This document shows positions 1-47,327 of a DNA stretch of 64,000 nucleotides, one piece after another. The stretch comes from Candidatus Hydrogenedentota bacterium. GTDB taxonomy: Bacteria > Hydrogenedentota > Hydrogenedentia > Hydrogenedentales > CAITNO01. Location of the stretch: assembly GCA_012730045.1 (NCBI GenBank), contig JAAYBR010000031.1, positions 1 through 64,000 of the forward strand, written 5' to 3'. Under the pieces are notes generated by a model. That model saw only the letters and a list, made by a program, of their open reading frames with translations. It was not told where the DNA came from and ran no database searches. A program made the translations under genes and the position numbers. Every line of letters starts with the position of its first letter. The stretch's first letter is position 1.

Positions 1-238
<238 letters not shown>

Positions 239-246
239 CCTCTCCC

Positions 247-3200
247 CTACTCCCTCTCATATATCCGGGTGGGGCGCTCGTCGCGGAGGTTGTCGTCCAC
301 CTCTTTCGGGTATACGGTGAAGGAGACGGACGCGGGGGTCGGGTCGCTGATGACGCGGGCCGGGAAGGCGGTCCCGTCGGGGCTGTAGGAATAGGTCTTG
401 AGCACGGTTTGGGCCGTGAGGACGTAGCGTTTCTCGCGCTTGCGGTCCTTCATGTCACCGAAAACGAGGCCGGTGGGGGTCGCCGGGCTCACGGGGAGGA
501 TGATGTCAACGAAGTCCACGCCCGGGCCCACCACGGCGGTGTTGTTCGCCACGGGGTTCCCGTCCTCGTAGAGCGTCCACTTGATCCACGCCTGGGCAAC
601 ATTGGTTTCCCCGTTGATCACGGCGCGGCGGATGGTCTCGGGCAGGCGCGCGGTCAGAGCGGCCCGGAGTTTCAGGTAATCATAGAGGGGTGGCACCCCC
701 TTCGGGGGAAGGGGAACGCGCGTCACACTGCCGTAGGGGCGGGTCTCGGAGTCGGTGTTGTTCGCCGTGTTCCGCCGCCATTCGGAAAGCGTGACCCGCG
801 CCTCCGTGTCCACGGACACGTTTTCCTGGCTCTGGCCGTTGTACCACCACGTGTACGAAATGCAGCTCGCGGTCAGGTCGGCCACCGTGACCGCGGCGCT
901 GTCCGCAAGCCCGGCGGGCTGGATGTTCCCCGCCTCATCCGCGCCGACCACCGTCAGCATGAGCGTGCGGCTCACAGTGGGATCGGGGTCGTTCTGGTTC
1001 GCCTGGAGCAGGACGGACAGGGGGGACCCGCCCATGTCGGTCTCGGGGGTGATGGGGCCGGAAATCCAGCCGCTCCAGCCGGTGACGGGCACCCACTGCA
1101 TGGTGCTGATTTCGCGGTCCGCCGCGGCGTCGGCGCCCCGCCACAGTTTGGCCTTCACATAGGGAACGATGGGCGCGACGTCGGCGGCATCGGGCCCCTT
1201 GATGTTTCGGCGGAGTTTCCAGTCGAAGCGCGGGCTCAGGGTCTGGGTGTCGCGCGGGCCGTTGGTGATCTCGGCCTGGGCGCGCCACATCCACCAGAGC
1301 ACCAGCGGGTTCGGCGCGGTGATCTCATTGCCCGCGCGGTCGCGCGCCGCAGGTTTCCCCTCGAAACGCCACGGGTCGGGAACGGACTGCGATGTCACGG
1401 CTTCAAAGCGCGCCGTGAGCCGCTTCACGGCGGCCGCCGGATCGGTGGAAAGGGTCACCGTTGTTGTGCCGCTGTCCGTCGGGCCGAGGGGCCCCTCCAG
1501 CCAGGCCCGGCCGTCGCCCTGCTCCGTGAAGTCGGTGCCGGTGTCGGACTCAAAGCCGCTCGTGGTGACGTGGGTCAGGGGCGCGGGCGGCCGGTCCTCG
1601 AACACGGCCTCAATGCCGAAACTGAGCGTGTCGCCCGCCGCCGTGTCCGCGCAGGTCCCGTTTCCGCCGGGGTTGAACAGGAAGTGGAGCGCGCGGTCCA
1701 CGATGGTGCCGCCGGACACGGGGATGGCGTGGGCTCCCTGCGGGCCGGGCACGCCGGTGCCCACAAGGCTGTCGTTGCCGTAGGCGCGGGGCTGGGCCGT
1801 CGCCGCATCGCCGTCGGCGGACGCGGAAAACAGCAGGGTCGGCGGCGTGGTGTCCACGAGGAAGGAGCAGTCGCCGGCGGTGTCCGTGATCCCGAACCCG
1901 TGGCCGTAGAGTGTGGGATTGGGCTCGGCGCCTGTGTAATCGTTCAGATAGACGAGGTTGATCCCCTCGGTGCACAGCGCCGTGTCATCGGCGGAACGGA
2001 AGTTGCACGGCTCGCTGAAAGTGACCGTGGCGGTGGCGGTGTTCTCACCGGTCGGCACCAGGTCAACCTCGTAGCATTGCCTGAGGATGGTGGGGTCCGC
2101 CGCCACGGTCATCCCCGGCAGGGGCTCCTCGGGCACCATGCGCAGTTTGGCATCGTTGAGGTTTATCCCCTGGGTGACTACGGTGATGGTGACGGGCTCG
2201 CCCCGGCCCACCACGGGGGGGTCCACGGAGCACGAAATCCAGATGGGCGTGCCGCTAAGGCCGCCGCCCTCCTGGTCCGCGCCCACCTGAAGCTCCTCGT
2301 TCAGCACGGCGCCGCGCGCGTCACCCTCAAAGTCAAAGGCGCGGTCCGCGCTCGCCACGAGGCCGGTCACCGGGTCGTCCACCTCGACAAAGTGGCCGGA
2401 AAGGACCGGGCTGCCCGTCTGGAGCTTCCCGGTCCACGGGCTGTCGGAATAATCCACCGTCGGGGCCGGATTTAGATTCTCAAAGCCGGCCTTCTCGTAG
2501 GGGGCGGGGGGGAAACTGCCGCGAATAACGTTGAGCCAGGTGTTCACCTCCCCCGTCACATTGCCGTCCTCGATGATGCTGGCGGCGAGGTTGATGGGGC
2601 CGCTGGTGGCGCGTATCCCGTCGCCGTTGCCCTTGGCGGTGCACTGGTACACCGTCACGAGGCCCGTGCTGTCCGAGAGGACCGCCGGGCCGGAGCAGCC
2701 GGTGAACACGGAATTGGACGCCGTGCCCGCGGCCTTTCCCGAGAAGCGCAGGCCGGGGCCGCTGATGTTCTTCGTGGCGCAGCGGATGAACTCCAGGACC
2801 GCCGTGTCATCGGTGGCCTGCACCCCCGCGCTGCCCGTGGACACGGTCAGGTTCTCCAGCCGCAGGTGCGCGTTGCTGACGCTGAGCACGGGGTCTGCGG
2901 GGGGCAGGCCGATGCACACGTCGTCTATGAGGAAGCTCGGCGGCGCCGCCCCGCCGGCGATTTCCGCGCGGAAGCGCAGGGTCTTGGTGGTGTCCCGCCA
3001 GGCGGCGGGATAGGGCAGGATGAACATGCGGTAGGAAGCGAGGGAGGCGTCGGCCGCGTGCTGTTCCAGGAGCACCGTCGCGTCCACCTCCACCTTGAAG
3101 GTGCTGTCGGCGCCGCCGGGCTGGCCGACCCGGAGGTTGAACCGGATTTCGCTGCCGGACGACGGGAAGGTGACGCTCTGCCGGAGGTCCACCGCCGACG

Positions 3201-4653
3201 GGGCGCCCACTTCACGGGTGAGCAGGAGCGCGCGGGCCGACGCGTTGCAGCCGGGCCCGGTGAAGTAGCTTGCGGGGAGCGGCGGGCCGAGAATGTCGCA
3301 GGGCGTGGCGGCGGACCATTGGCCGGCCGCCAGGCCGGCGTTCTCCATGTCGCCGTAAAGAATCTTGTCGCCGCTTTTCACCAGCGCGGACAGCCATCCG
3401 CCCAGGTTGGAGAGGCTGAGGTCGTCCAGTACGAACCGGGTGACCGGTCCGGAGACCGCGGCCGGCGGCTGGACGGTGGCGCGGAAGACGGGCATGACCG
3501 ATGACGGCGGGATCAGCGGCACCGAGACGGACTGGCAGTTGGCCCCGGCGAGGGATTCGGCCGCGGCGCTCCAGACAGCAGCCTCGCCCGGACGCGGCAG
3601 CAGCTCAATCTTGTCGCCGGGCCGCGGGGTGTCGGCGCGCACGCTGAAACGCAGGGCGGGCGGCACAAGCCCCCCCAGGCTCAGCACCTGCGCGGCGCCC
3701 GCGAAGGGGGCAACCAGTTCCACGAGGGACGCGCCGGGGCTGAGCAGGGCGAAGCCCAGATTGAGCGCGGCGGCCGTGGGAAGCGCCAGCGCGCCGACGC
3801 CGAACTCCGCGCCGCCGATGAGCGCGCAGGGCGGGTCCTCCGGGGCGCCAACGGCGAACTGGGACTCAATGGCGAGGGACTGGATTATCGCCGCCAGCGC
3901 CGGCGCGGGGGTGAACGTGTCCAGGGGCAGGGCCACGGGGGTCCAGTCGGCGGCGGCGGCCAGGTCCGTGTCCTGGATGAAGGCGGTTCCCGTGTTGCCG
4001 CCGGAGTCGGTCACCGTGACGACCAGCCGGTTGCCGGCAATGGGCGCATGCGCCTTGACCCAGACGGTGAGCGTGGCGCCGGGAACCACGGTGAAGGGCA
4101 GCGGCAGGGTCATCCATTCCAGACGCGCGGGGCCCCCGGGGGGGAGGTTGGGCACGGGCGTGGCGACGCCATAGCGCAATTCCACCTGGTCGGGCGTGAG
4201 GCCCGGCGTCGGCGTGGCGCAGGGGTCCAGCGTGAACTGGGCCAGCCACTCGCCGGAGGCGGCCCGGGCCGGATCCTTCACGATGACCGGCGGGGACGGC
4301 GGGTTGGGTATCCAGAGCGAGGTCTGGCCGGCCTCAAAATCGCCGTTGTCCACGACATTGCCGGGGCAGGGGCCGCCAACGCCGTTGCCCTCGATGACGC
4401 TTTCCGTCGGCAGCAGGCCCGGGTCGCCCAGGATTTCCAGGTCTTTGGTGACCGTCACGGGCGCGTCAAGCGGCCAGACGGCCTCGCTGCCCGAGGTGTT
4501 CTCCAACTGGATGGTGTCGCCCTCGGCGGCATCCGCGATGGCCTGGGCCAGGTCCTCGCCCTCGCTGACCGTAATCGTTGCGGCGGGGGCGCCCGCCGCG
4601 ATCATCACCGCCGCCGCAAAGGCGGCAAAAAAGACACACGACCTCCGCATCAT
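247..4653 (-). CDS. secreted right-handed beta-helix protein
   Basis: 1468-residue secreted protein. A Sec signal peptide covers about residues 1-24 (MMRRSC, a hydrophobic Ala/Val core, AGAPAA). Residues 25-92 look like the first turns of a parallel beta-helix (TITVSEGEDLAQAI, then GDTIQLEN). A long beta-sandwich/carbohydrate-binding-like stretch follows, and residues about 590-700 form a second right-handed beta-helix segment with repeated short strands (LRLENLTV, VLEFIRC, SNSVFTGC). The remainder resembles Ig-like extracellular modules; no catalytic motif is recognised. The start is supported by AGGAGG 9 bases upstream. It is the last gene of the pseudopilin operon, 35 bases after the giant GspK-like gene, so it may be a substrate or surface partner of that machine (inference). 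Confidence 0.8.
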   Translation of the reverse strand: MMRRSCVFFAAFAAAVMIAAGAPAATITVSEGEDLAQAIADAAEGDTIQLENTSGSEAVWPLDAPVTVTKDLEILGDPGLLPTESVIEGNGVGGPCPGNVVDNGDFEAGQTSLWIPNPPSPPVIVKDPARAASGEWLAQFTLDPCATPTPGLTPDQVELRYGVATPVPNLPPGGPARLEWMTLPLPFTVVPGATLTVWVKAHAPIAGNRLVVTVTDSGGNTGTAFIQDTDLAAAADWTPVALPLDTFTPAPALAAIIQSLAIESQFAVGAPEDPPCALIGGAEFGVGALALPTAAALNLGFALLSPGASLVELVAPFAGAAQVLSLGGLVPPALRFSVRADTPRPGDKIELLPRPGEAAVWSAAAESLAGANCQSVSVPLIPPSSVMPVFRATVQPPAAVSGPVTRFVLDDLSLSNLGGWLSALVKSGDKILYGDMENAGLAAGQWSAATPCDILGPPLPASYFTGPGCNASARALLLTREVGAPSAVDLRQSVTFPSSGSEIRFNLRVGQPGGADSTFKVEVDATVLLEQHAADASLASYRMFILPYPAAWRDTTKTLRFRAEIAGGAAPPSFLIDDVCIGLPPADPVLSVSNAHLRLENLTVSTGSAGVQATDDTAVLEFIRCATKNISGPGLRFSGKAAGTASNSVFTGCSGPAVLSDSTGLVTVYQCTAKGNGDGIRATSGPINLAASIIEDGNVTGEVNTWLNVIRGSFPPAPYEKAGFENLNPAPTVDYSDSPWTGKLQTGSPVLSGHFVEVDDPVTGLVASADRAFDFEGDARGAVLNEELQVGADQEGGGLSGTPIWISCSVDPPVVGRGEPVTITVVTQGINLNDAKLRMVPEEPLPGMTVAADPTILRQCYEVDLVPTGENTATATVTFSEPCNFRSADDTALCTEGINLVYLNDYTGAEPNPTLYGHGFGITDTAGDCSFLVDTTPPTLLFSASADGDAATAQPRAYGNDSLVGTGVPGPQGAHAIPVSGGTIVDRALHFLFNPGGNGTCADTAAGDTLSFGIEAVFEDRPPAPLTHVTTSGFESDTGTDFTEQGDGRAWLEGPLGPTDSGTTTVTLSTDPAAAVKRLTARFEAVTSQSVPDPWRFEGKPAARDRAGNEITAPNPLVLWWMWRAQAEITNGPRDTQTLSPRFDWKLRRNIKGPDAADVAPIVPYVKAKLWRGADAAADREISTMQWVPVTGWSGWISGPITPETDMGGSPLSVLLQANQNDPDPTVSRTLMLTVVGADEAGNIQPAGLADSAAVTVADLTASCISYTWWYNGQSQENVSVDTEARVTLSEWRRNTANNTDSETRPYGSVTRVPLPPKGVPPLYDYLKLRAALTARLPETIRRAVINGETNVAQAWIKWTLYEDGNPVANNTAVVGPGVDFVDIILPVSPATPTGLVFGDMKDRKREKRYVLTAQTVLKTYSYSPDGTAFPARVISDPTPASVSFTVYPKEVDDNLRDERPTRIYERE

Positions 4654-4688: not shown

Positions 4689-7600
4689 TCAGCGAACCCC
4701 CCTCGCTTCTTCCGACGCATCTTTGCGGGCGCGGCGCTCGTAGATGGCGCGACCGGCGGATTCCGCAGTTTTCACAAACTCCTCGGAATTCATCCGGCCC
4801 CGGTAGTCCAGTCTGCCGTCTCCGTCCAGGTCGGAAAGATTTCCCTCCTGCACGGTCACGAGAATCTCGAACATGTCCGACCGGGTCTCCACCAGATTCG
4901 CCAGTCCCGCAAACCGTTGGTATACCTCGTTGTAGCGCTCTTCCGCGTGCCGGTAATTGCTCAGCGGCCGCACCGGAGGAAGCACGCCGTCTTCATTACC
5001 AAGTATACCATCCTCCCCCGCACCTGCGGCGACGGATGCGAGCAGGGTGAAATAGCGGCCGTCGGGGTGGTGCGGCCGCTGGGACACGAGCATGGACATC
5101 AGCCGCAGCGAGGCCAGGCCCTCGTAGTCCTTATCCCAAGCTTTGGGATTTGTTAGCGAGGGAATCAACGGGTAGGTGTCACTGGGGTAGAGCTGGTCCT
5201 GGAGCGGATTGCCCAGCACCGGGTTGGGCGTGAAGCCCAGGGGCGGCCCGACCGCAAGAAATTCGGGCAGCGAGGGCATGCCGAGGCTGTCCTCCCTCCT
5301 GGGGGCTAACCGTTGCCTTTTTGCCTGAATCACGCCCGCCAGGCTGTCGTAGGCCTTGACGATGCCGGGGAGGCCCAGGAGCGGGTTGAACAAATAGTCG
5401 GTGGGGGGACCACCGGTGCTGCTCTCCACCCGGTACTGGCCCGTTTCGGCGGTGTTGAGGTTGAGGCGGCCGACGGTGCGCGGGGCGGGGGTGAGGACAA
5501 CGCAGGTGACGCAGGCCACCTGGTCGGGGCGGCCGAGGTTGCGCACGCGCAGGGCGAGGAAGTTGTCGGTGACGCGGACGAGGCGGGGCCGCCAGGCCAT
5601 GGACGCATCGTGGCTGTAGAGGATCATGCCGTCGCCATCGGCGCGGTAGGCCACGCCGGAGGGCACGCCGCCGAGGGCGGGGTCGTCGTCGGGGGGGTAC
5701 CAGTCGGCGGGATGGGCCAGGGCGCGCGCCTGGAGGGCCGCGCGCGCCTCGGGGGTGACGGCCGCAGGCAGGGTGTCCAGGCGCGGGGCCACGCGGGAGG
5801 CCGTGGTGCGGTCGGTGACGAATTCCAGGGCGAGCAGCGGGTCAAAGCGGTCCGCCGTGCCCGCGTCCCGGTTCTTCTCCAACTGCATGAGCCCGGCCAG
5901 CCGGGGCTCCAGCACAGAGCCGGTGCTGTCGAGCGGCAGGGGCGGCTCGTCCAGGCGGTCGGCCAGTCCGAGGGCGGCGGCACCGTCGTCGGAGAGGCCG
6001 GTGACGACTTTCTGGAGATGGTCCAACTGGTCGGCCATGCCGGGCACGAAGGTGCCGACGTAGGCGATGTAGGTGCCGTTGACGAGGCCGTCCTCGGCGT
6101 CCCAGGTGAAGACGGCCTCGGGACGGTTGGCCTCGCCCGCCGCCGTGTCGTGTTTGCTGACAAACATGACGGCGCGGCGCGCCACAGGCCAGCGCCGCCC
6201 CGCCTCGGCCGGGAGCATGGCGCCGAAGACGGGCGCGGGGCGGGCGGTGTCGAGGAGGAAGTCCTGGTTGAGCACGACGGGCCAGTTCCACACGGCGGTC
6301 GAGGGCAGTGTGATCCGCTCCGGCGGGCCGGTGTACCGGGTGGCGCCGCCGTTCAGCTCGCCGAACACGGGGAAGGGGGCGTAGGGCTCCGCCACGGCGT
6401 TGCCGTCGGCGAAGAGGTAGACGGGACTCCAGTAGAAGGGCGGCACGTCGGGCGTGGCCGGACTATTATCGGGGTCGGTCCACTGGACAAAACGCTGGAA
6501 GAAATCATCGTACGACTCAGCGCGCTCGTCTATGTCACTTCGGGCGGGGTTGGGCCAGAGGGGGGCGAAGCCGGCCTGGCCGACGGTGAGGACGACGGGG
6601 TCGAGGGCGGAGAGCTCGGTGAGGTCGCCGAGGCCGGCCATGCGGGTGCGCATGGGCTGGGCCCGGTGGGGGTTCAGGGGGGCGGCGTTGGCCAGGACGG
6701 CCGCGCGCACGGAGAGGTCCTGCCGCCAGACGATGCCGGCCGTGTTGCCGGGGGGCCGGTTCTGGAGGGCCGCCTCGTAGGGGCTGAAATCATTGGGCTG
6801 GTAGCGCGTGTTGACATAGGCCGAGGGGATGCGGAAATCCGTGTCCAGGCTGTGCTCGAAGAGGGGCATGGGCACGCGCATGAGGTCGGCGAGGGTGGCA
6901 TAGGGCACATTGCCCGTGCCGGACCGGCGGAACGCGTGGGCGTGGTTCACATAGACCCCGTCGTCGCCGGGGAAGACCACCTCGTCGTTCTCCAGGAACT
7001 GGCGTAGTTTGCCGGGGGTGTTCTTGACCGTGGCGTCCCAGGTGCGCATGGCCAGCATGGGCGCCGTGTCCTCCGGCCCCGCCCCGCCAAAGAAGCCGGC
7101 GGCGAGGTCGGCCGGGTTCTCCCACAGGCGCTCGGTCAGGTTCATGCGCAGGGGCGACCCGGCCATGGCATGGCCGAACAGCCGCGCCACATGCTCCTTC
7201 GGCGTGGCGGTGTAGACCACATCCAGGCCGAAACGGGGCTCAATGCTCCCCCCGCCGCTGCTGGTATAGGCCTGCTCGTACCACGCCGGGCTGTCGGCCC
7301 AGTCGTCATAGGCGCCGTCCGTCGGCTCCCAGCGATTGCTCGTGCCGAAGCGGTCGCCCGCATAGAGCGGGTGTTTCCGCTCCAGCGCCCGGTAGAAGTC
7401 CAGCCCCATCTGGTCCGGAGGCCAGTAGCTCAGCCGGGTAAGGTCCAGGGCGACGCGGTTCTCAAGGGCGGTGCCGCCGGCCCCCTGCCAGGCCCCTGCG
7501 GTGTCGTAGTTGTTGTAGCCGTCCACATAGTAGGGCGACTCCACGATGTCGTCCACCGTGCGGTTGATGACGTCGTACTCGCGGTAGGTGGCCTGGTCGG

Positions 7601-10600
7601 CCACGCGGCCAAAGGCCGAATCGCCCACGTACAGCGTCACGATCACGTTGTCGCCGGGGTTCCACCGCCGCTCCACAAAGGCCGCCCACTCGGGGGAGTC
7701 GCCGGGGGTAACGCCGAAGGGGGTGACGCCGGGAAGTGCGTAATTGTCGTAGGCTCCCCCCAAGCTGAAGTCATACCCCTGTCTGACCACTTCACTCCCG
7801 GCATAGGCGGAGCCGTTCAACCAGTCGTTGATGTATGAACTCACAGCCGGCGTGTAGCCGATGCCGAAGGTGCCCGCCTCGAACGAGCCGGGGCCGTACA
7901 CGCGGGGGCGCTGCCCGAGGTAGGTGAGGGGCGCGTTGCCCTCGTCCACGCCCTCGCTGAGGAAGGCGTTGGCGTGGTACCACAGGGTGACGGCGGGGTC
8001 GGCATCTTCGTAGTCCGCGCCGTTCTCGTCCACATACCCGTTGAAGTCGTTGTCCACCATGTCCTTGTCGAGGGTGCCGCGAATGTAGCGGCGCAGGATG
8101 GCGCCGTCCGGCGTCAGGTCAAGCCCCGTGCTGTCCTTGGCGATGTAGCCGCCGTCGCCGTCGTTGTCGTAGCCGTCGCGCTCGGGGTAGTTGGGCAGCA
8201 CACCGCCGCGCAGGACCAACTGCGCCACCCGCTTGACGGAATTGATTTCCGTCAGGGGCACGGGCTTGGCCGCGTCGGTGTAGGGGGCGTCCTCCCACAG
8301 CCGCCGGTTGACCATCGGCACAATGCGGGCAAACGCGGGCACCACGCCCGCGGCGTTCCCATGCGTCCGGATTTCCTCCAGCGCGCCGTCCGTGTCGAGA
8401 ATGTCATTCGGTGTCGAGGGAGGGGGCGGCACGGGGGGGAAGTACCGCCGCTGCGACGACACGCCGTCGCCGTCGTTGTCCACGTAGTCCGTGGGCGGAA
8501 CAGGCGTCGGCGGATCTGTGCTTCCGTCATACGCAGGTGCCCGTCGAGAGAAGACGGAGCCTGTCCCTTCAACAAGGCCGCCCGGAAAACTGCCGCTTAT
8601 CCCTTGCACGCTGGAATCAGAAAGCGCCCCGTAATTGATGTCGGGGCTGGTGTCGCCAATAGGAGGCACGGTCACATAGGCGATTGGATTGTCTGTCGCC
8701 GTCATGGTCGCAGGGACCCCCTCAATGTCATATCGAGCCATGCCGATGCCATTGGCGCCGGGGGTGGCAAAATCGGGGTCGGGGGGAATGGTGTCGCGGT
8801 AGGTGTCGAGGGGGGGGGCCTTGGTTGCGCCCTGCTGGTCTGTGAAGGTGAGGAGCAGGCGGCCCTTGGCGGCGATGCGGGTCTGGGCGGGCACCTCCCA
8901 CACACTCTTGAAGGGATCGCGCATTTCGGGGTTCGTGTCGAGGCCCGCCGGGTTGGGAATCCCCACCTCCAGCGTCCACCCGGAAAGGTCCAGCTCCTGG
9001 TCCGTCGTGTTCGCAATCTCCACATACTCGTGGTCCGGCTCCTGCGAGAAGTCGAAGAAGTTGACGGAGAGATGGCGGGGGATCGGCTGGCCGCTGACCG
9101 GGTCCATAAGGGGCAGGCCCGTCGCAGGGTCGAGCAGGTAAAGATTCGCCTCGATGGGCTTGAGACGGACGGCGACGCACAGGGTGTCGTAGGCCGCCCC
9201 GGCAGGCGGCACGATGACCGTGAGCGTGCGGGTGGAGGGGGTGTCGGTCGCGACGACGGTGTCCAGGAAGGCCCCGTTGTGCTGGTCGCCGAGGAGATCG
9301 GTCAGCGTGGGGACCGTGGGGTCGGACCCGTAGAGAATCAGGAAATACTGCTCAATGGCCGCGTAGTCCGACGGATTCAGGGGGGCCGGGTCCTCCAGCG
9401 CCCGCGAGGGGAGGAAAACCCATCCGGGCGGGGTGCCCGCCCCCGTGGCGAGAAACTCCGGCTCGTCCACTGTCTGGAAATACTTCGCGCAGTAGTCGGC
9501 CAGCAGTTGCGCGCGCTCGACGGTCAGGTCGTCGTTGAGGCCGTCGCCGTCCACGTCGTAGGCGTCGGGGATGTTGACGATGCGCGCAATGTTGGAGGCG
9601 ACGCTCTCGGTCCCGGAAGCCATCGTGGTGTACCGGATGGAGTACTCAAGCTGGTTGGTGTTGTCCACCGTCACGGCGCCGGTGACGGGGTCCGTCACGT
9701 TGAGGGTCAGATAGTAGCGGCCGGCGGGCAGGCCGTCGGTGGCGCGGAAACGGAACTCCATCACGTCGGGATTGACATTGGCCGGGTCGTTCTCCAGGGG
9801 CGTCCAGACGGTTCCCGCAGGCACGGTGTAGCGGTAGCCCGTCTGCGAGCCGAGGATGGGCTGCTCCGAGACAATCGCGCCGGTGCCATCCACCTCCTGA
9901 TAGTAAGTCCGCAGTTTCCACTCGGGCGCGGCCATGGCCGTCATCCGGTCCATGTCAAAGGCGGGCATTTCGGCGTAGGGGGCGGGGTTGAGGTTGAAGA
10001 ACGGGATGTTGGCGGCGGTCCAGTTGACGGTGTCGGCGGAGGGCCTTTGCATGAGCAGGTCAATCTGGTAGGCGGCCTGGCCGGCGAGGGGGAGGATTTC
10101 GGCCTCGACGCGGCGGACGGGGCGGGGCATGATTTCGGTGATGCGGATGGCCTCGGCGCCTGCGGCGGCGTAGGAGAGGAGGCGGTTTTGCCCCTCGAAA
10201 ATGTCCGGATCGGGGTTGGAGTCGGTGATGGCGGCCCACCAGGGGTCCACGGCGGAGATGTCGTTGAACTCGGGGGTGATGCCGAAGGAGTCGGAGAAGT
10301 ATTCCTGGATGGAGCCCGCGGGGAAGAGGTCCTGCCGGCGGACGCGCTCGCGCTCGTTGAGGGGCTCGGCGGGCTCGTTGTCGAGATTGGCGGAGCCGCG
10401 CTTTTCCATGACGAGGAGGGAGCGGACGGCGTCGCGGTCGCGGTGGTCGGCGACGTTGACGGCGGTCTGGAGGGCCTGGAGCTGCGCGTCGGCGGGGAAG
10501 AGGCCCGGGGCGGCGTTGTTGCCGCCGAGGAGGGCGCCGCGCAGGGTCTTGTTGGACTGGCGCAGGCCGAAGGCGAAGCTGCGGACGGTGGCGTCCATGC

Positions 10601-13304
10601 CGGCCCCGTCCGCGGCGCGGGCGGCGTTGGGGAACTGGCCGCGCAGGAGCAGCGCGGCGGCAAGCTGGGGCGCGTCGGCGAAGTTGGGGTCGAGCTTGTT
10701 GACCGCGCGGTCGCCGTAGGGGGTGGAAATGTAGGCGACGTTGCGCGCCTCGCTGTGGGCCGTGATGAAGCGGTTGATGTCGGCCCACTCCTTGGGCTGG
10801 AAGGCCGGGGAGGCGCCCGCGTCGGCCATCTTCTGGAGTTCATAGTGGACGGCGAGGGTGCGGTCGCCCAGTTCGCCGACCTCGTCCGTGGCGCCGTTGT
10901 TGTTGTTGTCGTCGTTGTCAGATTCGGCGAAGGGGTTGCGCAGGGGGGCGCGCTGGAGGAACTCGGCGGGGTCGTCTATGCCCTCAAGCATGCCCAGGGC
11001 GCGGTAGTAGGCGGCGGTGCTGCTGTTGAGAACGTCGTCGGTCCACAGAACGGGCGCGGAGGCGGGCGGGGTGCCGGAGAGCTGCAGCTTTGACCACTCG
11101 CTGAGCCGGGGCAGGTAGAGGCCGGAGTCGGGGAGGCCGGAGGCGTTTTCGTCGCGCCGGGAGAAGGCGAGGAGGAAGCTGTTGACGTTGTCATCGGCGC
11201 GGCCGAGGCCGGGGGCGGTGACGTCGTAGTCGTAGGGCTGGGCCGTGAGGCTTCCGGCGGGGTTGACGGGCGCCTCAAAGTCCCACAGGTTTCTTTCAGG
11301 GAGGCCGACCCTGACGCCCGCGCCCATGAGCATGTTCCATGTCTCGGCGGCGCGCTGGACGCCCATTGCGGGGAGGATGCGTGTCTCGTATTCGGCGGGG
11401 GTGAGGGCCTGGCTCATGCCGCGGACCACGCGGGTGGCTGGGTTGGCCAGTGCGAGGGTGTCTTGGTGTCCGTAGGTGTGGAGGCCGCCTGCGTTGAGGT
11501 TGGCCTTTCCGGACTCGTCGGCGACGTGGACGGCCATGCGGCCGACGACCTCGCAGACGGACTCGGCGCTGACGCCGAGGACGTAGGCGGGGCAGGTGCA
11601 GGTGGCCCCGGTGGGGGTGCCGTCGGGGCGGCGCACGGGGATCTCGTGGTAGGTGGAAAAGGCGGTGTGTGACAGGGAGAAGGCCGCGGCCACGACGTCG
11701 AGGTTCAGGGGGCGGAAGCCCTTGTCGGTGAGGACGGGCACGGAGATGGGGGGGCAGTCGTAGGTGCCGTCGTCTTTCAGGGTGACAAATTCCGGCCCGG
11801 GGGCGGCGTAGGCGGTGAACCCGTTGACGTGGAGGTCGTAGTCGTTGTCCACCGTGTCCACGTTGCCGATGTTCAGGATGGCCGGCGCGGCGGGCAGGCC
11901 GTCCAGGTCCACGCGGGGCGCGCGGATTTGGTCGGGCAGGGTGAGGTAGACGTATTCCAGCGCGTTGCCGTTTGCCGCGTTGGGGCGGCGGTCGGCGGGC
12001 GTGATCTCGCCGTCGTTGTCCATGTCCACGGGCACGGAGAGGCCGGGCAGGGGCAGGGTGAGGCGGTAGGCGGCGACGGGGGTGGGATAGTCCGGGTCCT
12101 GTTCGCGGATGACGGCGCCGGAGCCGTCCACGGCGTAGACGAAGGCGCCGAGTTCGAAGTTGCGGCGGATTTCGCCCTCGTCGGTGGCGTCGAGCCCCTC
12201 GGAGGCGACGGTGGGGTCGTAGAACTTGCTGTCGGGGTAGCCGTCGAGGTCGTTGTCCACGCCGTCGCCGGAGAGGTCCGCGTCCTTGGGGAGGGGAATC
12301 CAGGCGCTGTCGCGCAGGCCGTCGCCGTCGCTGTCGAAGTCGGCCCAGAGGTCCACGAAATTGGCGGGGAAATACCCGTCGGTGCCGGACGGCGCGAAGG
12401 GGAGGAAGGTGGAGCCGTCATTCCGCTCGACGATGACCTGGCCGGCGAAGTCGGGGGTGACGAAGGGGAACCTGCGGTCCATTTCGGCGGTCATGGTGAA
12501 GCGGTCGAAGCGCTGGGAGAGGCCCGCGGCCGTGAGGGCGTTGTTGACGTCCGTGAGGGTGAGCCGGACGCCCGCGGCGTCCACCAGGCGCATGTCCTTT
12601 TCGGAGGCGAAGAGGAGGATGGTCTGGCCGCTCCATCGGGGCACGGCGAGCCAGGGGGCGGTGCGCGGGCCGCGGAAGAGGGGCTCGCGGACGCCGTCGG
12701 GGGTGGTGTCGGCGGGGTCGGCGGCGTCGCCGTCGCCCCGGTAGAACTGGGCGTAGAGGATGCCGCCGGAGAGGAGGCCGGCTTCGCGCAGGGCGCGCTC
12801 GACGGGCTCGAGGGTGAAGGCGGTGCGGCCGCCGTCCCAGGGGGCGATGCCGTCCACCCAGGTCCATTCCTTGCCCGCGAAGGCGGCGCCGTTGAACAGG
12901 GTGCGCCAGGCGTGGTCGGTGGAGGTGGCGTTGGGGTTGACCTGGAGGTCGCGGTTGAGGGTGTACTGCGCGACGGCGAAGCCGGCGTCCACGAGGTACT
13001 GGGCGCGGACGGTGTGGACGACATTGACGGCGGTGGTGGACTCGATGCGGGTGACGGCGAAGAAGGTGAGGCCGATGGCGAGCAGCACGGCCATGATCGA
13101 AAGGGCGACGATGAGGGCCGCGCCCGAGTTCCGGTGCAGTTTGCCGTGCCGCCGGGGTCCCGCCGGCCCTGTCTTGCCCCAGGCGGCGGCGGGGGCCCCG
13201 CCCGGGTTCCGGTGCAGTCTTCCGTACCGCCGGCGTCCCGCCGGCCTTGTCTTGCCCCAGGCGACGGCGTGGGCCCCGCCCGGGTTCCGGTGCAGTCTGC
13301 GCAT
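4689..13304 (-). CDS. giant GspK/PilX-like minor pseudopilin (2871 aa)
   Basis: Class III-like prepilin N-terminus: a Gly at residue 61 precedes AALIVALSIMAVLLAIG, the hydrophobic assembly helix. The residue at +5 is Val rather than Glu, as is usual for the GspK tip subunit. GspK-like landmarks are ADESGKANLNAG near residue 600 and GRLNLNTAE near 2615. Typical GspK is about 330 residues; here some 2000 residues separate these landmarks. The insert holds Ca-binding DxDxDG loops (near 320, 430 and again near 2828) and a lamin-tail-like domain around 1410-1500 (EYVEIANTTDQELDLSGW). The 61-residue leader contains three 26-residue repeats. It is preceded by GspJ-like and followed by beta-helix genes. 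Role as tip subunit or tip adhesin is inferred from the family; AGGA lies 10 bases before the ATG. Confidence 0.8.
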   Translation of the reverse strand: MRRLHRNPGGAHAVAWGKTRPAGRRRYGRLHRNPGGAPAAAWGKTGPAGPRRHGKLHRNSGAALIVALSIMAVLLAIGLTFFAVTRIESTTAVNVVHTVRAQYLVDAGFAVAQYTLNRDLQVNPNATSTDHAWRTLFNGAAFAGKEWTWVDGIAPWDGGRTAFTLEPVERALREAGLLSGGILYAQFYRGDGDAADPADTTPDGVREPLFRGPRTAPWLAVPRWSGQTILLFASEKDMRLVDAAGVRLTLTDVNNALTAAGLSQRFDRFTMTAEMDRRFPFVTPDFAGQVIVERNDGSTFLPFAPSGTDGYFPANFVDLWADFDSDGDGLRDSAWIPLPKDADLSGDGVDNDLDGYPDSKFYDPTVASEGLDATDEGEIRRNFELGAFVYAVDGSGAVIREQDPDYPTPVAAYRLTLPLPGLSVPVDMDNDGEITPADRRPNAANGNALEYVYLTLPDQIRAPRVDLDGLPAAPAILNIGNVDTVDNDYDLHVNGFTAYAAPGPEFVTLKDDGTYDCPPISVPVLTDKGFRPLNLDVVAAAFSLSHTAFSTYHEIPVRRPDGTPTGATCTCPAYVLGVSAESVCEVVGRMAVHVADESGKANLNAGGLHTYGHQDTLALANPATRVVRGMSQALTPAEYETRILPAMGVQRAAETWNMLMGAGVRVGLPERNLWDFEAPVNPAGSLTAQPYDYDVTAPGLGRADDNVNSFLLAFSRRDENASGLPDSGLYLPRLSEWSKLQLSGTPPASAPVLWTDDVLNSSTAAYYRALGMLEGIDDPAEFLQRAPLRNPFAESDNDDNNNNGATDEVGELGDRTLAVHYELQKMADAGASPAFQPKEWADINRFITAHSEARNVAYISTPYGDRAVNKLDPNFADAPQLAAALLLRGQFPNAARAADGAGMDATVRSFAFGLRQSNKTLRGALLGGNNAAPGLFPADAQLQALQTAVNVADHRDRDAVRSLLVMEKRGSANLDNEPAEPLNERERVRRQDLFPAGSIQEYFSDSFGITPEFNDISAVDPWWAAITDSNPDPDIFEGQNRLLSYAAAGAEAIRITEIMPRPVRRVEAEILPLAGQAAYQIDLLMQRPSADTVNWTAANIPFFNLNPAPYAEMPAFDMDRMTAMAAPEWKLRTYYQEVDGTGAIVSEQPILGSQTGYRYTVPAGTVWTPLENDPANVNPDVMEFRFRATDGLPAGRYYLTLNVTDPVTGAVTVDNTNQLEYSIRYTTMASGTESVASNIARIVNIPDAYDVDGDGLNDDLTVERAQLLADYCAKYFQTVDEPEFLATGAGTPPGWVFLPSRALEDPAPLNPSDYAAIEQYFLILYGSDPTVPTLTDLLGDQHNGAFLDTVVATDTPSTRTLTVIVPPAGAAYDTLCVAVRLKPIEANLYLLDPATGLPLMDPVSGQPIPRHLSVNFFDFSQEPDHEYVEIANTTDQELDLSGWTLEVGIPNPAGLDTNPEMRDPFKSVWEVPAQTRIAAKGRLLLTFTDQQGATKAPPLDTYRDTIPPDPDFATPGANGIGMARYDIEGVPATMTATDNPIAYVTVPPIGDTSPDINYGALSDSSVQGISGSFPGGLVEGTGSVFSRRAPAYDGSTDPPTPVPPTDYVDNDGDGVSSQRRYFPPVPPPPSTPNDILDTDGALEEIRTHGNAAGVVPAFARIVPMVNRRLWEDAPYTDAAKPVPLTEINSVKRVAQLVLRGGVLPNYPERDGYDNDGDGGYIAKDSTGLDLTPDGAILRRYIRGTLDKDMVDNDFNGYVDENGADYEDADPAVTLWYHANAFLSEGVDEGNAPLTYLGQRPRVYGPGSFEAGTFGIGYTPAVSSYINDWLNGSAYAGSEVVRQGYDFSLGGAYDNYALPGVTPFGVTPGDSPEWAAFVERRWNPGDNVIVTLYVGDSAFGRVADQATYREYDVINRTVDDIVESPYYVDGYNNYDTAGAWQGAGGTALENRVALDLTRLSYWPPDQMGLDFYRALERKHPLYAGDRFGTSNRWEPTDGAYDDWADSPAWYEQAYTSSGGGSIEPRFGLDVVYTATPKEHVARLFGHAMAGSPLRMNLTERLWENPADLAAGFFGGAGPEDTAPMLAMRTWDATVKNTPGKLRQFLENDEVVFPGDDGVYVNHAHAFRRSGTGNVPYATLADLMRVPMPLFEHSLDTDFRIPSAYVNTRYQPNDFSPYEAALQNRPPGNTAGIVWRQDLSVRAAVLANAAPLNPHRAQPMRTRMAGLGDLTELSALDPVVLTVGQAGFAPLWPNPARSDIDERAESYDDFFQRFVQWTDPDNSPATPDVPPFYWSPVYLFADGNAVAEPYAPFPVFGELNGGATRYTGPPERITLPSTAVWNWPVVLNQDFLLDTARPAPVFGAMLPAEAGRRWPVARRAVMFVSKHDTAAGEANRPEAVFTWDAEDGLVNGTYIAYVGTFVPGMADQLDHLQKVVTGLSDDGAAALGLADRLDEPPLPLDSTGSVLEPRLAGLMQLEKNRDAGTADRFDPLLALEFVTDRTTASRVAPRLDTLPAAVTPEARAALQARALAHPADWYPPDDDPALGGVPSGVAYRADGDGMILYSHDASMAWRPRLVRVTDNFLALRVRNLGRPDQVACVTCVVLTPAPRTVGRLNLNTAETGQYRVESSTGGPPTDYLFNPLLGLPGIVKAYDSLAGVIQAKRQRLAPRREDSLGMPSLPEFLAVGPPLGFTPNPVLGNPLQDQLYPSDTYPLIPSLTNPKAWDKDYEGLASLRLMSMLVSQRPHHPDGRYFTLLASVAAGAGEDGILGNEDGVLPPVRPLSNYRHAEERYNEVYQRFAGLANLVETRSDMFEILVTVQEGNLSDLDGDGRLDYRGRMNSEEFVKTAESAGRAIYERRARKDASEEARGVR
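13131..13296 (-). repeat. 78-bp in-frame tandem repeat in prepilin leader
   Basis: The decamer CCGGTGCAGT recurs at 13131, 13209 and 13287, exactly 78 bases apart, and the intervening sequence is repeated with few changes. In protein terms a 26-residue unit beginning LHRN(P/S)GGA is present twice before the final copy that leads into the pilin helix. Removing two units would leave a 9-residue leader ending in Gly, the usual length for a prepilin, so the array looks like a recent duplication of the leader. Confidence 0.93.
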
Positions 13305-13351: not shown

Positions 13352-14647
13352 TCACCTGGAGCCGCGCATGTAGGCTGCGGGCAGGTCCACTTTCTGCTGG
13401 TACCACTGGGTCATGGGCGGCAAATCCGATCTGGCCGGGGCGGCGTAGAGCCAGAAGCCCGGCGCCAGCCACGCGGGCAGCCGCGACACCACGGGGTCGC
13501 CGGCCGTCTGCTCGGGGTCTGAAAGGTCGCCCGCCGCCTGGAAATCGGCCGCCAGGTCCTGCATCTCGTCGGGGCCGGGATTGACCGCCATGCCGAGCAG
13601 GAGCGCCCGCGACGCGGGATTGTTGTACAGCGTGTTGAACACGGGGCCGCTGGTGCCGTCCTCCATGCCGTAGAAGAAGAAGGAGGAGAGGTCGAGGGCG
13701 TTCACGGGCCGGAGCTGGCCCGAGACCGGGTCGGGCCGGTAGACGGGATTGCCCCCGTCGCACAGCACGGCCTCGATGATCAGGTTCTCCACCACCTCGT
13801 AGTCGGGCCAGCTGGGGTGGTTGGCCTGGCATTCCCCAACACAGTCAGAGTCTCCGCCGCACAGCGCCACGCAGTCCTCGGCCCAGAAATCCACGGGGGC
13901 CAGGGTGTGGTAGGCGATCCTGGGGAACCCGTACAGGGGCATGCCGCCGGTCATGCGGTGCATCATGTCGCGGTTGTTGAGCGCCTCGAGGAAAAAGGTC
14001 GCGTTGCGCAGGGGGGCGACGAGCTTGGCGAAGTCGGAGACGTAGCCCGAGCCGTCCACGGGGAGTTCCTGGCCGAAGGCGTTGAGGCTGGTGGCACCGG
14101 TGTGGTCCTCGTAGCGGAGCAGGGAGCCGAGGCGTATCTGCACGTTGAAGTCGTAGAAGCTGTCGGCGCCCATGACGGGCGGATAGACGCTCAGGAACAG
14201 GGCCTCCTCGGTGGGGGCCTGGCGCAGGAACAGCTCGCGGACCTCGCTCCACTTGAGGGGCATCTCGACGAGGAAGGTCTCCGCCCCGGGGCGGATGACG
14301 TAGGCCACGCGGCCGAAGGCGCCGTCCTCGAGCGCGCCGAGGTACATGAAGCCGTTGGGCTCGCCGTAGAAGCGGGTGAGGCCCCGCGTGTCGTCCGTCG
14401 TGAACGCCACCTTGATGTCCTGCTCGAGCACGGCCAGGGCGTTGCGCGCGCGCTCCATGTTGTTGAGCATGGCGTAGCCCTGGCGCACGGTCCGCGTGGT
14501 GCCGGAGATCAGCAGGGCGATGCTGCCCATGATGACCAGGAAAATGGCCATGGACACGAGCATCTCCACGAGCGTGAAGCCCGCCGTGCCGGTCCGCGCC
14601 TGTTTGTGCCCGTCCGCCGGGGCGCGCTGGTCAGCGCTCGGTGACAT
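13352..14647 (-). CDS. GspJ/PilW-like minor pseudopilin
   Basis: 431-residue protein with a prepilin leader ending in Gly followed by FTLVEMLVSMAIFLVIMGS (Glu at +5), matching GspJ/PilW-type minor pseudopilins. I chose the ATG at 14647 because it gives a 22-residue charged leader and overlaps the upstream gene by 17 bases; a longer reading frame exists but lacks support. It is about twice the usual GspJ length. The C-terminal half carries a Cys pattern CX3C-X5-CX3C around residues 257-271 not typical of the family. In the assembled machine it would sit in the tip complex with the GspI- and GspK-like products encoded on either side. Confidence 0.82.
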   Translation of the reverse strand: MSPSADQRAPADGHKQARTGTAGFTLVEMLVSMAIFLVIMGSIALLISGTTRTVRQGYAMLNNMERARNALAVLEQDIKVAFTTDDTRGLTRFYGEPNGFMYLGALEDGAFGRVAYVIRPGAETFLVEMPLKWSEVRELFLRQAPTEEALFLSVYPPVMGADSFYDFNVQIRLGSLLRYEDHTGATSLNAFGQELPVDGSGYVSDFAKLVAPLRNATFFLEALNNRDMMHRMTGGMPLYGFPRIAYHTLAPVDFWAEDCVALCGGDSDCVGECQANHPSWPDYEVVENLIIEAVLCDGGNPVYRPDPVSGQLRPVNALDLSSFFFYGMEDGTSGPVFNTLYNNPASRALLLGMAVNPGPDEMQDLAADFQAAGDLSDPEQTAGDPVVSRLPAWLAPGFWLYAAPARSDLPPMTQWYQQKVDLPAAYMRGSR

Positions 14648-15032
14648 AGGTGACAAACTCCTCCTCCCTGCCGCTGTTGAGCCGCACCGAGAAGACCACA
14701 CGGTAGAGGTCGTCGCCGGGGCCGCCGACGCGGGTGGCCGTGGCGCGCCAGGAGTCGTAGAGGGTGTAGGCGCGGGCCGACGCCTCCACGACGTGGTAGG
14801 TGTTGTTGTTCACCCAGCTGGACAGGGAGGCGCCCGCGCCGCCCGTGCGCACCTCGCTGAGCTGGGTGCGCGCCAGCGCCGCGATGACCGTCCGCTCCGA
14901 CGCCACGCGCTGCTGCGCCAAAGACGCCGGAAACAGCGACATGACCGCCATGATCCCCACGGCCAGGATCGTCAGGGCGATCACCACCTCGAGAAGCGTG
15001 AAGCCGGCGTTGTCGGGGCGGGTGTGTCTCAT
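14631..15032 (-). CDS. GspI/PilV-like minor pseudopilin
   Basis: 133-residue protein beginning with a 9-residue leader (MRHTRPDNAG) and the prepilin helix FTLLEVVIALTILAVGIMAVMSL, with Glu at +5 after the Gly cleavage point. Length and helix fit GspI/PilV. The ATG at 15032 overlaps the TGA of the GspH-like gene (ATGA), so translation is probably coupled; an upstream in-frame extension of 34 residues runs inside that gene and is rejected. The next gene downstream, GspJ-like, starts within its last codons. Part of the minor pseudopilin tip set. Confidence 0.85.
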   Translation of the reverse strand: MRHTRPDNAGFTLLEVVIALTILAVGIMAVMSLFPASLAQQRVASERTVIAALARTQLSEVRTGGAGASLSSWVNNNTYHVVEASARAYTLYDSWRATATRVGGPGDDLYRVVFSVRLNSGREEEFVTYVTER

Positions 15033-15913
15033 GGCGCTTGCAGGCTCCCCGTCTTGATGCGGCCCGTGGACCGGTAAATGGTCACCTCCTGACCCTGGTA
15101 CCCCATCGTGCCCTGCTCGGTCCCGCTTTTCCATAGGTTCAGGTCCAGATCGTCAAAGGTCTTGGAGGTCCACATCCGCTCCTCGCGCGGCTCGTCGGGC
15201 ATGGGCGCGAAGAGGATGCGGAAACGCTGCTTGTCCTCATCGGAAAGCAGTGAACCCTTTCCGTCGAAGATATGGCCCAGATATATCTCCACATCGGCGG
15301 CGGCAAACTCCGCCTCTCGCACCGCAAGCTGGGGGTCTATGTAGCTCCGGTAGACGCGCACCGGCGCCATGCCCAATTCCTTGGTGCCCGCATCGGCCGC
15401 CTGAAAAAAGAACGGCTTATAATCCGGCCCGTCTGGCGGCGGATCGCCCGTGACGTTGTACTTCAGTCCGCTGGGGGGCTGGTCGTAGCTGTCGGGCGGC
15501 TTCTGGAGGAGAACGCAGTAGCCGGAAATGAAGGGCTGGAAGTCGGCGCCGTGCTGCGGCGTGGGCACGTAGAGGCCCGCGTAGGAGGTTCCGGCGTCCT
15601 TCGGGAGCTGGTAGACGACCATGGCCCCGGAGAGGACCCGCACGGTCTGGCCGAGGATGGTGTCGTCCACCGGGAAGGGCGCGATCTCGTAGATGACCGC
15701 CGTGTTCACATTGTACGTGGCGGCATAGACCCGCGCCGCGCGCAGCATGGAGGTGAGGGGCCGCACGCCGCGCTGGAGGTCGTTCTGCGAGAACATCCGC
15801 ACCACGGGGATGGAAATCGCCGTGAGGATGCCGATGACCGCCAGCACGACGATCAGCTCGACGAGGCTGAACCCCGCCGCGCCGCCGCCGCTATGTCGCG
15901 CTTCCCGCCGCAT
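15029..15913 (-). CDS. GspH/FimT-like pseudopilin
   Basis: 294-residue protein with leader MRREARHSGGGAAG and helix FSLVELIVVLAVIGILTAISIP, the class III prepilin signature with Glu at +5. The following LTSMLRAARVYAATYN segment is the conserved alpha1-C region of GspH/FimT. GGGAG lies 8 bases before the ATG. At 294 residues it is longer than classical GspH (about 170), the extra part being a soluble globular domain with no recognised motif. It is 130 bases after the major pseudopilin gene, with a GC hairpin in the gap, and overlaps the GspI-like gene by four bases. Confidence 0.82.
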   Translation of the reverse strand: MRREARHSGGGAAGFSLVELIVVLAVIGILTAISIPVVRMFSQNDLQRGVRPLTSMLRAARVYAATYNVNTAVIYEIAPFPVDDTILGQTVRVLSGAMVVYQLPKDAGTSYAGLYVPTPQHGADFQPFISGYCVLLQKPPDSYDQPPSGLKYNVTGDPPPDGPDYKPFFFQAADAGTKELGMAPVRVYRSYIDPQLAVREAEFAAADVEIYLGHIFDGKGSLLSDEDKQRFRILFAPMPDEPREERMWTSKTFDDLDLNLWKSGTEQGTMGYQGQEVTIYRSTGRIKTGSLQAP

Positions 15914-16043: not shown

Positions 16044-16946
16044 TCAGTTGTAGAACCGCTGCCAGGTGGCCGCCGGATCCCAGTTGTTGATGTCGTCGCC
16101 GCCGCCGATGTCCCCGGAGTCCTGGATGTTGAACCAGGAATACACATCATCGGCCTGGTAGGCAACCTGATAGATCATCTGGCCGCTGTTCATGTTCTCG
16201 CCGTAGGACCACACGTAGGCCGACTTGCCCGGATCGGCCGGGTAACCGACGCGGGTGGGCCAGGTGTCAAGATCCGGGATGACATCCGTCATGTTTATAA
16301 GAAGGTCCAAGCCGGTGCCGTCGTCAAGTATGTTGCGGAGGATGAAATTGTCGCGCCGGGCGGCCGCGTTCCCGGCGCTTGATCCGGATTCAACGCTGAA
16401 CTTGCGGAACGGGATGGGCGCGTTCACTGTCGTTCCGGGGAGTTTCGCGAACTTCCACGGACCCGGGAATATCTTGTACTGGTTGCCCCAGGGGTCAAGT
16501 CCGAGGTCCATGTAGTTGGTCCCAAGCTTGGCAATGATGTCCTTCTTGATCAAGTTGTTGCCCAAAGTCCCAAGCGCGGACCCGGTTTCCGGAAGCAACA
16601 CGTTGCGCCCGTAACGGAGCAAATCGTAGACCAGATTGCTGTACATCTCCACCACGGCAGGGAAATTGCCAACGATCCACCCTTCCCAGGTGGCAGGGCT
16701 TCCATCCCATCCCGCAAAGCGGGGCACGGCGCCGGGGGTGAAGAGCTGGTTGAGGTTTCCCTTGCCGGCGTCCGTGAGCATGGCGGTGAGGGCGAGCTCG
16801 ACGCCGTTGATTTCGGCGATGGCCCTGGTGACGCGGGCGCGGACGATGTATCGCTGGACGTTGGGGACGACGATGGCCGCGAGGATGGCGATGATGGCCA
16901 TGACCACGAGGAGCTCGACGAGGGTGAAACCTTGCTTTCTTTTCAT
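16044..16946 (-). CDS. GspG-like major pseudopilin
   Basis: 300-residue protein. A five-residue leader (MKRKQG, cleavage after Gly) precedes FTLVELLVVMAIIAILAAIVVPN, a textbook type II major pseudopilin helix with Glu at +5. The ATG at 16946 has GGAGGA 6 bases upstream and replaces a longer reading frame start. The next segment (RARVTRAIAEINGVELAL) and a DPWGNQYK motif are GspG hallmarks; the DPWG region is part of the Ca-stabilised loop. It is twice the length of classical GspG (about 145 residues), with inserted sequence before DPWG and an Asp/Gly-rich tail. First of four prepilin-type genes downstream of GspF; likely the most highly expressed subunit. Confidence 0.88.
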   Translation of the reverse strand: MKRKQGFTLVELLVVMAIIAILAAIVVPNVQRYIVRARVTRAIAEINGVELALTAMLTDAGKGNLNQLFTPGAVPRFAGWDGSPATWEGWIVGNFPAVVEMYSNLVYDLLRYGRNVLLPETGSALGTLGNNLIKKDIIAKLGTNYMDLGLDPWGNQYKIFPGPWKFAKLPGTTVNAPIPFRKFSVESGSSAGNAAARRDNFILRNILDDGTGLDLLINMTDVIPDLDTWPTRVGYPADPGKSAYVWSYGENMNSGQMIYQVAYQADDVYSWFNIQDSGDIGGGDDINNWDPAATWQRFYN

Positions 16947-17048
16947 TGCGGGTCCTCCTTGCGCCCCTGCGGGGCGGTTGTATTCCTTGGCTGCTGCGGA
17001 TGAAGCTCCTGCTTTCATAATACCCGGTTCCTTGTGGTTTGGGGGTTC

Positions 17049-18287
17049 CTACTGGTTGTTGATCTGGTCGCCCAGGGTGAAAATGGGGAGGTAGAGCGCG
17101 ACGACGATGAATCCGATGATTCCGCCGAGGACGATGATGATGAGGGGCTCGAGGAGGGAGAGCATGGCGTCCACGGCGTTTTCGACCTCGGCGTCGTAGA
17201 TGTCGGCGACCTTGACGAGCATGGCGTCGAGGGAGCCGGTCTCCTCGCCGACGTCAATCATGTTGACGACCATGGGGGGGAAGACCTTGCTCTTGTCGAG
17301 GGGGGCGGCGATGGTGTCGCCCTCCTTGACGCTCTCGTGGACCGTGTCCACGGCGTTCTGGATGACCTCGTTGCCGATGGTCTCGCGGGTGATCTTGAGG
17401 GCCTGGAGGATGGGCACGCCGGAGGTGATGAGGGTGCCGAGGGTGCGGGCGAAGCGGGCGACGGCGACCTTGGTGACGAGGTCGCCGATGAGGGGGACCT
17501 TGAGGATGATGCGGTCGAAGACGCGCTTGACCTGCTTGGACCGCATGGCGAGCTTGAGGCCGATGATGGTCCAGCAGATGGCGGTGAGGAGGATCCACCA
17601 CTTGTAGATCATGAAGTCCCCGGCGGCGATGAGCACCTTGGTGGGCGCGGGGAGGTCGCCGCCGAACTCGGTGAAGATGTCGGCGAAGACGGGGACGACC
17701 TTGAGGAGGAGGAAGCTGACAATGCCGCCGGCGATGAGGATGACGGCGATGGGGTAGATGAGGGCGCCCTTGACGCGGCGCTTGAGGGCCTCGCGGCGCT
17801 CCATGAAGATGGCCAGGCGCTGGAGGACGGTCTCGAGAAGGCCGCCGACCTCGCCGGCGCGGACCATGTTGACGTAGAGGCGGTCGAACTGCTTGGGGTG
17901 CTTGGCGAGGGCCTCGGCGAAGGTGGAGCCGGACTGGACGTCGGAGGCGACCTCGCGGAGGATGTCGCGGAGCTTGCAGGGCTTGAGCTGGGCGATGAGC
18001 ACGTTGACGCTGCGCAGGAGGGGGAGGCCGGCGTCAATCAGGGTGGAGAGCTGGCGGGTCATGACGACCAGCTCCTTGGTCTTGACGCCGCCGAAGTAGA
18101 GCTCGTCGAGGCCCTTCTTCTTGCGGGCGGCGCGGCGCTCGTCGCCCTTGGTGGCCTCGCGCACGTTGGTGGGGAAGAGGCCCAGGGAGCGGATGTCGTT
18201 GAGGGCGAGGGCCTGGTTGTCGGCGGCGATGACGCCGAAAATCTGCTTGCCCTCCCGGTTCAGGGCGTAGTAGGCGTATTTTTGCAT
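17049..18287 (-). CDS. GspF/PilC inner-membrane platform protein
   Basis: 412-residue polytopic protein with two GspF domains. The N-terminal part (YAYYALNREGKQIFGVI, then LVVMTRQLSTLIDAGLPLLRSV) and the repeat copy (VARFARTLGTLITSGVPILQAL) are the family signatures, and there are three hydrophobic segments: about 165-190, 215-235 and a C-terminal one (LEPLIIIVLGGIIGFIVVALYLP). The platform couples the ATPase to pseudopilus growth. AAGGAG sits 9 bases before the ATG; the gene follows the second GspE-type ATPase by 18 bases, so ATPase and platform are co-translated from one message. Confidence 0.93.
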   Translation of the reverse strand: MQKYAYYALNREGKQIFGVIAADNQALALNDIRSLGLFPTNVREATKGDERRAARKKKGLDELYFGGVKTKELVVMTRQLSTLIDAGLPLLRSVNVLIAQLKPCKLRDILREVASDVQSGSTFAEALAKHPKQFDRLYVNMVRAGEVGGLLETVLQRLAIFMERREALKRRVKGALIYPIAVILIAGGIVSFLLLKVVPVFADIFTEFGGDLPAPTKVLIAAGDFMIYKWWILLTAICWTIIGLKLAMRSKQVKRVFDRIILKVPLIGDLVTKVAVARFARTLGTLITSGVPILQALKITRETIGNEVIQNAVDTVHESVKEGDTIAAPLDKSKVFPPMVVNMIDVGEETGSLDAMLVKVADIYDAEVENAVDAMLSLLEPLIIIVLGGIIGFIVVALYLPIFTLGDQINNQ

Positions 18288-20054: not shown

Positions 20055-20076
20055 TCCGTTGTTCCCGTGTGTCCGG

Positions 20077-46930: not shown

Positions 46931-47044
46931 TCCGCTCTCCTGCAAAAAGTGCCTGTGAAGGACAGCCGCCCGCCGCCATGGCCCGCAATATGTATACCGT
47001 GCGGGGACGGAACGGTTCCAAGCCGCCTCATACGGTGCCACGGC

Positions 47045-47053
47045 AGTGTAGCA
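47045..47053 (-). promoter_or_regulatory. extended -10 promoter of CFI-box giant
   Basis: Minus-strand TGCTACACT: TG-N-TACACT; start near 47038, leaving a leader of about 108 bases. Identical to the element ahead of the TlpA-LRR gene. Confidence 0.42.
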
Positions 47054-47327
47054 TATTGCCGCCCGTACGCGCCCCGCAGGGCGGTCGCGCCGGGTGCAGG
47101 CCCGGCCGGTCCTGGGCCGCCAAACCAAGCCCCCGCCTGCCCCGAGGGGCGGCCGGACGGGGACCACCGCCCAAAGACGAGGCCAACGGCACGGAGAGCA
47201 AACGGGTATGCATGCCCCGCCTGGCGTGAGGCGGACACTCCTGTGCGCCCTTTAGGCGGGCGCGGCATCGCCCCTATTCATCACCGAGCCCCCCGGCACT
47301 GGGCGGTCCCAGCGTGCCAAACAACAA

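Follow-up and report, generated by a model that had tools for sequence, protein, structure and literature searches.

A GspK-like minor pilin of 2871 residues at the end of a type IV pilus-like operon in Hydrogenedentota

The locus and its gene order

The window analysed here is a stretch of 64,000 nucleotides from a Candidatus Hydrogenedentota bacterium, a member of a little-known phylum for which most knowledge is derived from metagenomes. Its minus strand carries a pilus operon that opens with a PilB/GspE-type assembly ATPase (21199–23061), a PilT retraction ATPase (20077–21180; TIGR01420, 468.9 bits, above cut-off), a second copy of the PilB/GspE-type ATPase (18306–20225) and a PilC/GspF platform protein (17049–18287; Pfam T2SSF, E 7e-65). 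The pilin genes follow: a 324-aa major pilin of GspG/PilA type (16044–17018) and minor pilins of GspH type (15029–15913) and GspI/PilV type (14631–15134), all three assigned from domain and family profile matches and gene order, then a GspJ-type minor pilin with Glu5 (13352–14701), assigned from its N_methyl match, its order and the Glu5 check. The last gene of this G-H-I-J-K order, in the GspK slot, is a single unbroken open-reading frame with an ATG start (4689–13304, minus strand) encoding 2871 residues, as the initial annotation had read it, and we assign it as a giant K-type (GspK/PilX-class) minor pilin from the single frame, 17 homologues in the same slot and collinearity with a GspK profile. 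Frames overlapping it on the plus strand or in other frames (for example 7974–11093, plus, 1039 aa) were discarded as GC-rich antisense frames, having no protein features by eye.

Directly downstream of the giant lies a gene for a large secreted beta-helix protein of 1468 aa (247–4653, minus strand; Pfam Beta_helix). Among relatives with enough sequence, a large open-reading frame, mostly with a signal peptide by eye, follows the giant in most cases. In T4aP operons pilY1 follows pilX, and by analogy the large secreted protein sits where pilY1 would sit, making the beta-helix protein a possible tip partner or substrate. The contig end itself (window 1–258) is repetitive: 22 copies of a 9-bp satellite (AGTCAGACC) give way to telomere-like CCTAAAC repeats. 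Elsewhere in the window (43547–52110, minus strand), neighbouring genes encode two very large, probable surface proteins of 1206 and 1572 aa that carry InlB B-repeat-like domains.

Architecture of the giant protein

The first 61 residues (13122–13304) form a leader that ends at the predicted prepilin cleavage site after G61. A tandem repeat with a 78-bp unit (2.5 copies, window 13104–13300) extends it to ~60 residues, and in some relatives a Met lies ~10 residues or fewer from the cleavage site. The hydrophobic alpha-1 helix (aa 62–115; 12960–13121), identified by hhalign to GspK, lacks Glu5, which is carried by pilins G, H, I and J and is absent from the giant and from all 16 relatives in which the motif was read. 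The ESGKANLN landmark region (aa 585–610; 11475–11552), collinear with GspK in hhalign, contains DESGKANLN at aa 596–604 and leads into an alpha-domain region that is enlarged and bears acidic loops (aa 611–1045; 10170–11474), assigned by profile alignment as far as aa ~727. Then come a lamin-tail domain (LTD) with two large insertions (aa 1048–2057; 7134–10163), recognised by Pfam LTD and by a profile of mid-size LTD-bearing K proteins, and the helix-hairpin-helix landmark GRLNLNTA (aa 2612–2619; 5448–5471), recognised by hhalign to GspK and through the mid-size K proteins. By profile comparison, a C-terminal region, ETRSDMFEI...YER (aa 2806–2860; 4725–4889), is the counterpart of the GspK C-terminal segment.

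The initial annotation had placed ESGKANLN near residue 600 and LNLNTAE near 2615, with ~2000 extra residues between them. Both landmarks were found (ESGKANLN at aa 597, LNLNTA at aa 2614), and their spacing of ~2015 residues compares with ~85 in the 317-aa GspK of the same genome. The expansion sits in two places, however, as ~2000 residues beyond ESGK are accompanied by a further ~460 ahead of it that the annotation had not counted. By sequence, these extra ~2500 residues comprise acidic loops of calcium type, the lamin-tail domain in its split form and further modules rich in beta structure. Ten DxDxDG loops are present, against a mean of 0.35 and a maximum of 3 in 300 shuffles, and Asp makes up 8.6% of the protein. 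The calcium loops and lamin-tail-like domain proposed at the outset are thus both upheld, the latter in 18 of 18 homologues and below threshold in the giant itself.

In the giant, Pfam LTD (PF00932) matches aa 1423–1484 with an E-value of 8.3e-5 and 23.4 bits, under the 34.3-bit gathering cut-off; across the 18 family members the best E-value is 2.2e-14. In the mid-size proteins IRINE(I/V)M opens the domain, E(W/Y)VELxN follows, and a GSP or STP motif closes it. The corresponding pieces in the giant are IRITEIM at aa 1053, a counterpart of E(W/Y)VELxN at aa 1426 and GSPLRMN at aa 2057, and from these positions we conclude that its lamin-tail domain is split by two insertions of several hundred residues, with the core at aa 1414–1490, the last strands at aa ~1885–1912 and a tail to aa 2057. 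In a Foldseek search with a low-confidence model of aa 1040–2080, the seven best PDB matches were lamin Ig folds, none with E < 0.001, which may serve as corroboration only of the LTD assignment. One paper contains both terms, lamin tail domain and pilin; to go by its title, it is a proteomic study of an archaeal biofilm.

At such a size, incorporation into a filament is hard to imagine, and the protein could instead be a membrane-anchored scaffold of the periplasm or envelope that has lost polymerisation. We regard this as very improbable, as the prepilin motif and the linkage to H, I and J are strictly conserved.

Relationship to GspK

We compared the giant by hhalign with a reference profile of twelve normal GspKs, using 20 column-permuted controls as the null. 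The N-terminal helix matched at 97.5% over 78 columns, the ESGK region at 72–88%, the NTA region at 61% and the C-terminal segment at 22% probability. The four landmarks are collinear with GspK in this direct comparison, in which the best permuted control reached 3.3%; the direct matches are short, except for that of the N-terminal helix. Against the T2SS GspK equivalog NF037980 the giant matches at its N-terminus with an E-value of 3.6e-5 and 23.4 bits, below the curated cut-off of 130 bits. A sequence search of the PDB with the giant and three profiles gave no relevant match. AlphaFold models of aa 56–1045, a segment that lacks the C-terminal half of the core, and of aa 1040–2080 reached pLDDT values of 29 and 30, respectively, and are uninformative because each was built from an input of three sequences only. 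By its place in the conserved gene order and its lack of Glu5, the giant occupies the GspK slot and bears the GspK signature.

Firmer matches were obtained through K-slot proteins of 1026–1572 aa, which occur in three other family-level lineages. The profile of these mid-size proteins aligns with GspK at both ends (N-end 96.6%, 106 columns; C-end 96.3%, 83 columns), and with the giant in its N-terminal part (97.5% and 97.8%, the latter for the ESGK block together with aa 611 to ~727), in its middle (99.6% over aa 1048–1520, 253 columns; 88.1% over aa 1889–2002, 51 columns) and in its C-terminal block (aa 2576–2857, 99.0%, 145 columns). For example, one mid-size chain of 1441 aa carries LTD and HHH_3 above the Pfam cut-offs, plus a T2SSK match. 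A fourth lineage has a 2275-aa member with an identical order of landmarks, and expanded proteins of 724–1012 aa match the N- and C-terminal profile parts only. A graded size series is therefore found on one scaffold (317, 724–1012, 1026–1572 and 2206–3081 aa), and because the mid-size K proteins bridge GspK and the giant, the insertion probably grew stepwise into one scaffold, the direction of change being our reading of the series. The proposal of a GspK-like pseudopilin is accordingly backed by the sequence profiles, the mid-size bridging family and the position at the end of G-H-I-J-K.

Distribution in the phylum

Matches to the giant are present in 58 of 68 Hydrogenedentota genomes, and in 35 of 38 when good genomes are considered, whilst its middle block alone was matched in 48 (two weakly). 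The initial annotation had allowed for a long frame fused by assembly error; this is ruled out by 17 complete homologues of 2296–3081 aa from different Hydrogenedentota genomes, which retain conserved synteny. The order PilB-PilT-PilB-PilC-G-H-I-J-[giant] recurs in relatives wherever upstream sequence was fetched and recognised, the exception being one locus (L034) with neighbours that were not recognised. In one relative (L052) the giant is spread over a pair of overlapping frames of 2277 and 492 aa, a break that probably reflects a frameshift or sequencing error. Near-universally in Hydrogenedentota, therefore, a small protein of ~320 residues that ordinarily sits at the tip of a secretion or grappling filament is enlarged to 2,300–3,100 residues by inserted calcium-loop and lamin-tail-like modules. 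This phylum-wide occurrence, the coexistence of near-normal GspKs and the smaller LTD-bearing K proteins of other lineages all extend beyond the initial annotation.

Associated pilus and secretion machinery

On the giant's contig, 48 kb beyond its operon, lies a gene for a secretin of 1008 aa whose N-terminal part is a TPR region (L163:9550–12576, minus strand), and two genes from it that of a PilM-like protein of 685 aa. The same genome has two further G-H-I-J-K loci (contigs 123 and 108; L155 and L156), with GspKs of 317 and ~460 aa and a secretin on each contig. Given these two separate loci with near-normal GspKs, we assign the giant to a retractile, T4P-like system of its own, with PilT, PilM and secretin.

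The same gene order can be read differently. G-H-I-J-K is the order of a T2SS, and in several Hydrogenedentota (L153, L154) a T2SS-like G-to-K operon with a normal GspK adjoins the giant operon. GspK and its partners are known to contact secreted effectors (PMC10191384), and a large protein, mostly with a signal peptide, is encoded directly downstream in most relatives. The giant might then cap a pseudopilus like that of type II secretion, and its large head, never displayed outside, would recognise very large proteins such as the neighbouring beta-helix protein in the periplasm and expel them. PilT and PilM point instead to a retractile pilus, and the genome already has near-normal GspKs in two further GspG-K loci; we consider this reading unlikely, though more probable than the other alternatives.

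A competence pilus is a further alternative, with the giant as a receptor at its tip that would contact DNA through its lamin-tail or beta modules. It would resemble the pilin ComZ of Thermus, which is thought to bind DNA and has a large insertion at roughly the corresponding position (PMC8179133). PilT is present, and the genome encodes a ComEA-like helix-hairpin-helix protein (L054:1477–2340, minus strand), in itself a hint of natural competence. The giant is, however, Asp-rich, which disfavours DNA binding unless calcium bridges the contact, and its helix-hairpin-helix landmark is common to all GspKs, so we judge this explanation improbable.

The usual tip adhesin of T4P is PilY1. Its beta-propeller domain (PF05567) was detected in none of the 68 Hydrogenedentota genomes, against 49 of 318 other sampled genomes in the same search, a non-detection that does not prove replacement by the giant.

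Proposed function

Our preferred reading, which we hold to be rather likely, is that the giant is the K-type minor pilin of a retractile T4P-like filament, whose head acts outside the cell as an adhesin and takes the place of PilY1. Type IV filaments begin from a tip complex of minor pilins, capped by a K subunit without Glu5 (PMC10191384). Prepilin peptidase would cut the giant after G61, and with H, I and J it would nucleate the filament, at whose tip it would remain because it is without Glu5. The growing filament would drive a head of ~300 kDa through the secretin. Calcium may rigidify the head, which could bind a surface, a polysaccharide or a partner cell, or hold the downstream beta-helix protein, and PilT retraction would tug on the bond so made. 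As a tip head on a retractile filament, the giant would thus be a one-piece substitute for a separate PilY1 tip adhesin. With its inserted modules the giant probably forms a very large head, built into the pilin, for gripping or binding, and a role in adhesion or contact is plausible from the retractile-pilus gene context, the lack of a detected PilY1 and the binding-type modules. More tentatively, and with less confidence than in the preferred reading, we suggest a phylum-wide fusion of tip priming with tip adhesion, in which ~2000 nested residues form a ~300-kDa retractable head that replaces the non-covalent PilY1.

Measured against ordinary GspK, the giant raises the size known for K-type tip pilins ~ninefold; it also gives Hydrogenedentota a testable surface-contact or secretion machine, and poses the physical question of whether a folded 300-kDa tip could fit through a secretin.

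Comparison with known systems

Among the closest known counterparts is GspK/XcpX, the T2SS minor pseudopilin (NF037980, PF03934), which shares with the giant an N-terminal helix without Glu5, the ESGKxNxN and NxNTA landmarks, the C-terminal segment, the place after G-H-I-J and the calcium loops; GspK itself binds calcium (PMC6211770). It differs in its size of 317–460 aa and in having no lamin-tail domain, whilst the giant falls far short of the equivalog cut-off and shares its genome with GspKs of near-normal size. Another oversized K-like protein is Verru_Chthon cassette protein A (TIGR02600, a model of 1296 positions), whose pilin-like partners B, C and D are comparable to those of the giant. 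The giants and their mid-size kin match model positions 1–63 and 226–265, the giant scoring 11.5 bits against a cut-off of 332.3, and across 386 sampled genomes TIGR02600 gave partial matches only, with none over cut-off. Among the papers searched, none was found to name Verru_Chthon cassettes.

The T4aP systems with a PilX/PilK-class tip pilin and PilY1 resemble the giant system in PilB, PilT, PilC, PilM, secretin and the H-I-J-K set, and in the gene for a large secreted protein immediately after K, but in the phylum no PilY1 domain was detected and the bulk lies inside the pilin itself. The grafting of binding modules onto tip pilins is an established, adhesion-mediating theme, and in GspK and ComZ the modules are inserted within the pilin sheet (PMC8179133). 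By profile comparison and Pfam, the giant likewise combines a pilin module with a non-pilin domain, as do PilB and PilC of S. sanguinis, CofB of ETEC and ComZ of Thermus, in which modules are grafted or inserted for presentation at the tip. Those proteins are far smaller and carry one or two modules, whereas the giant nests more than 2000 residues inside a GspK scaffold.
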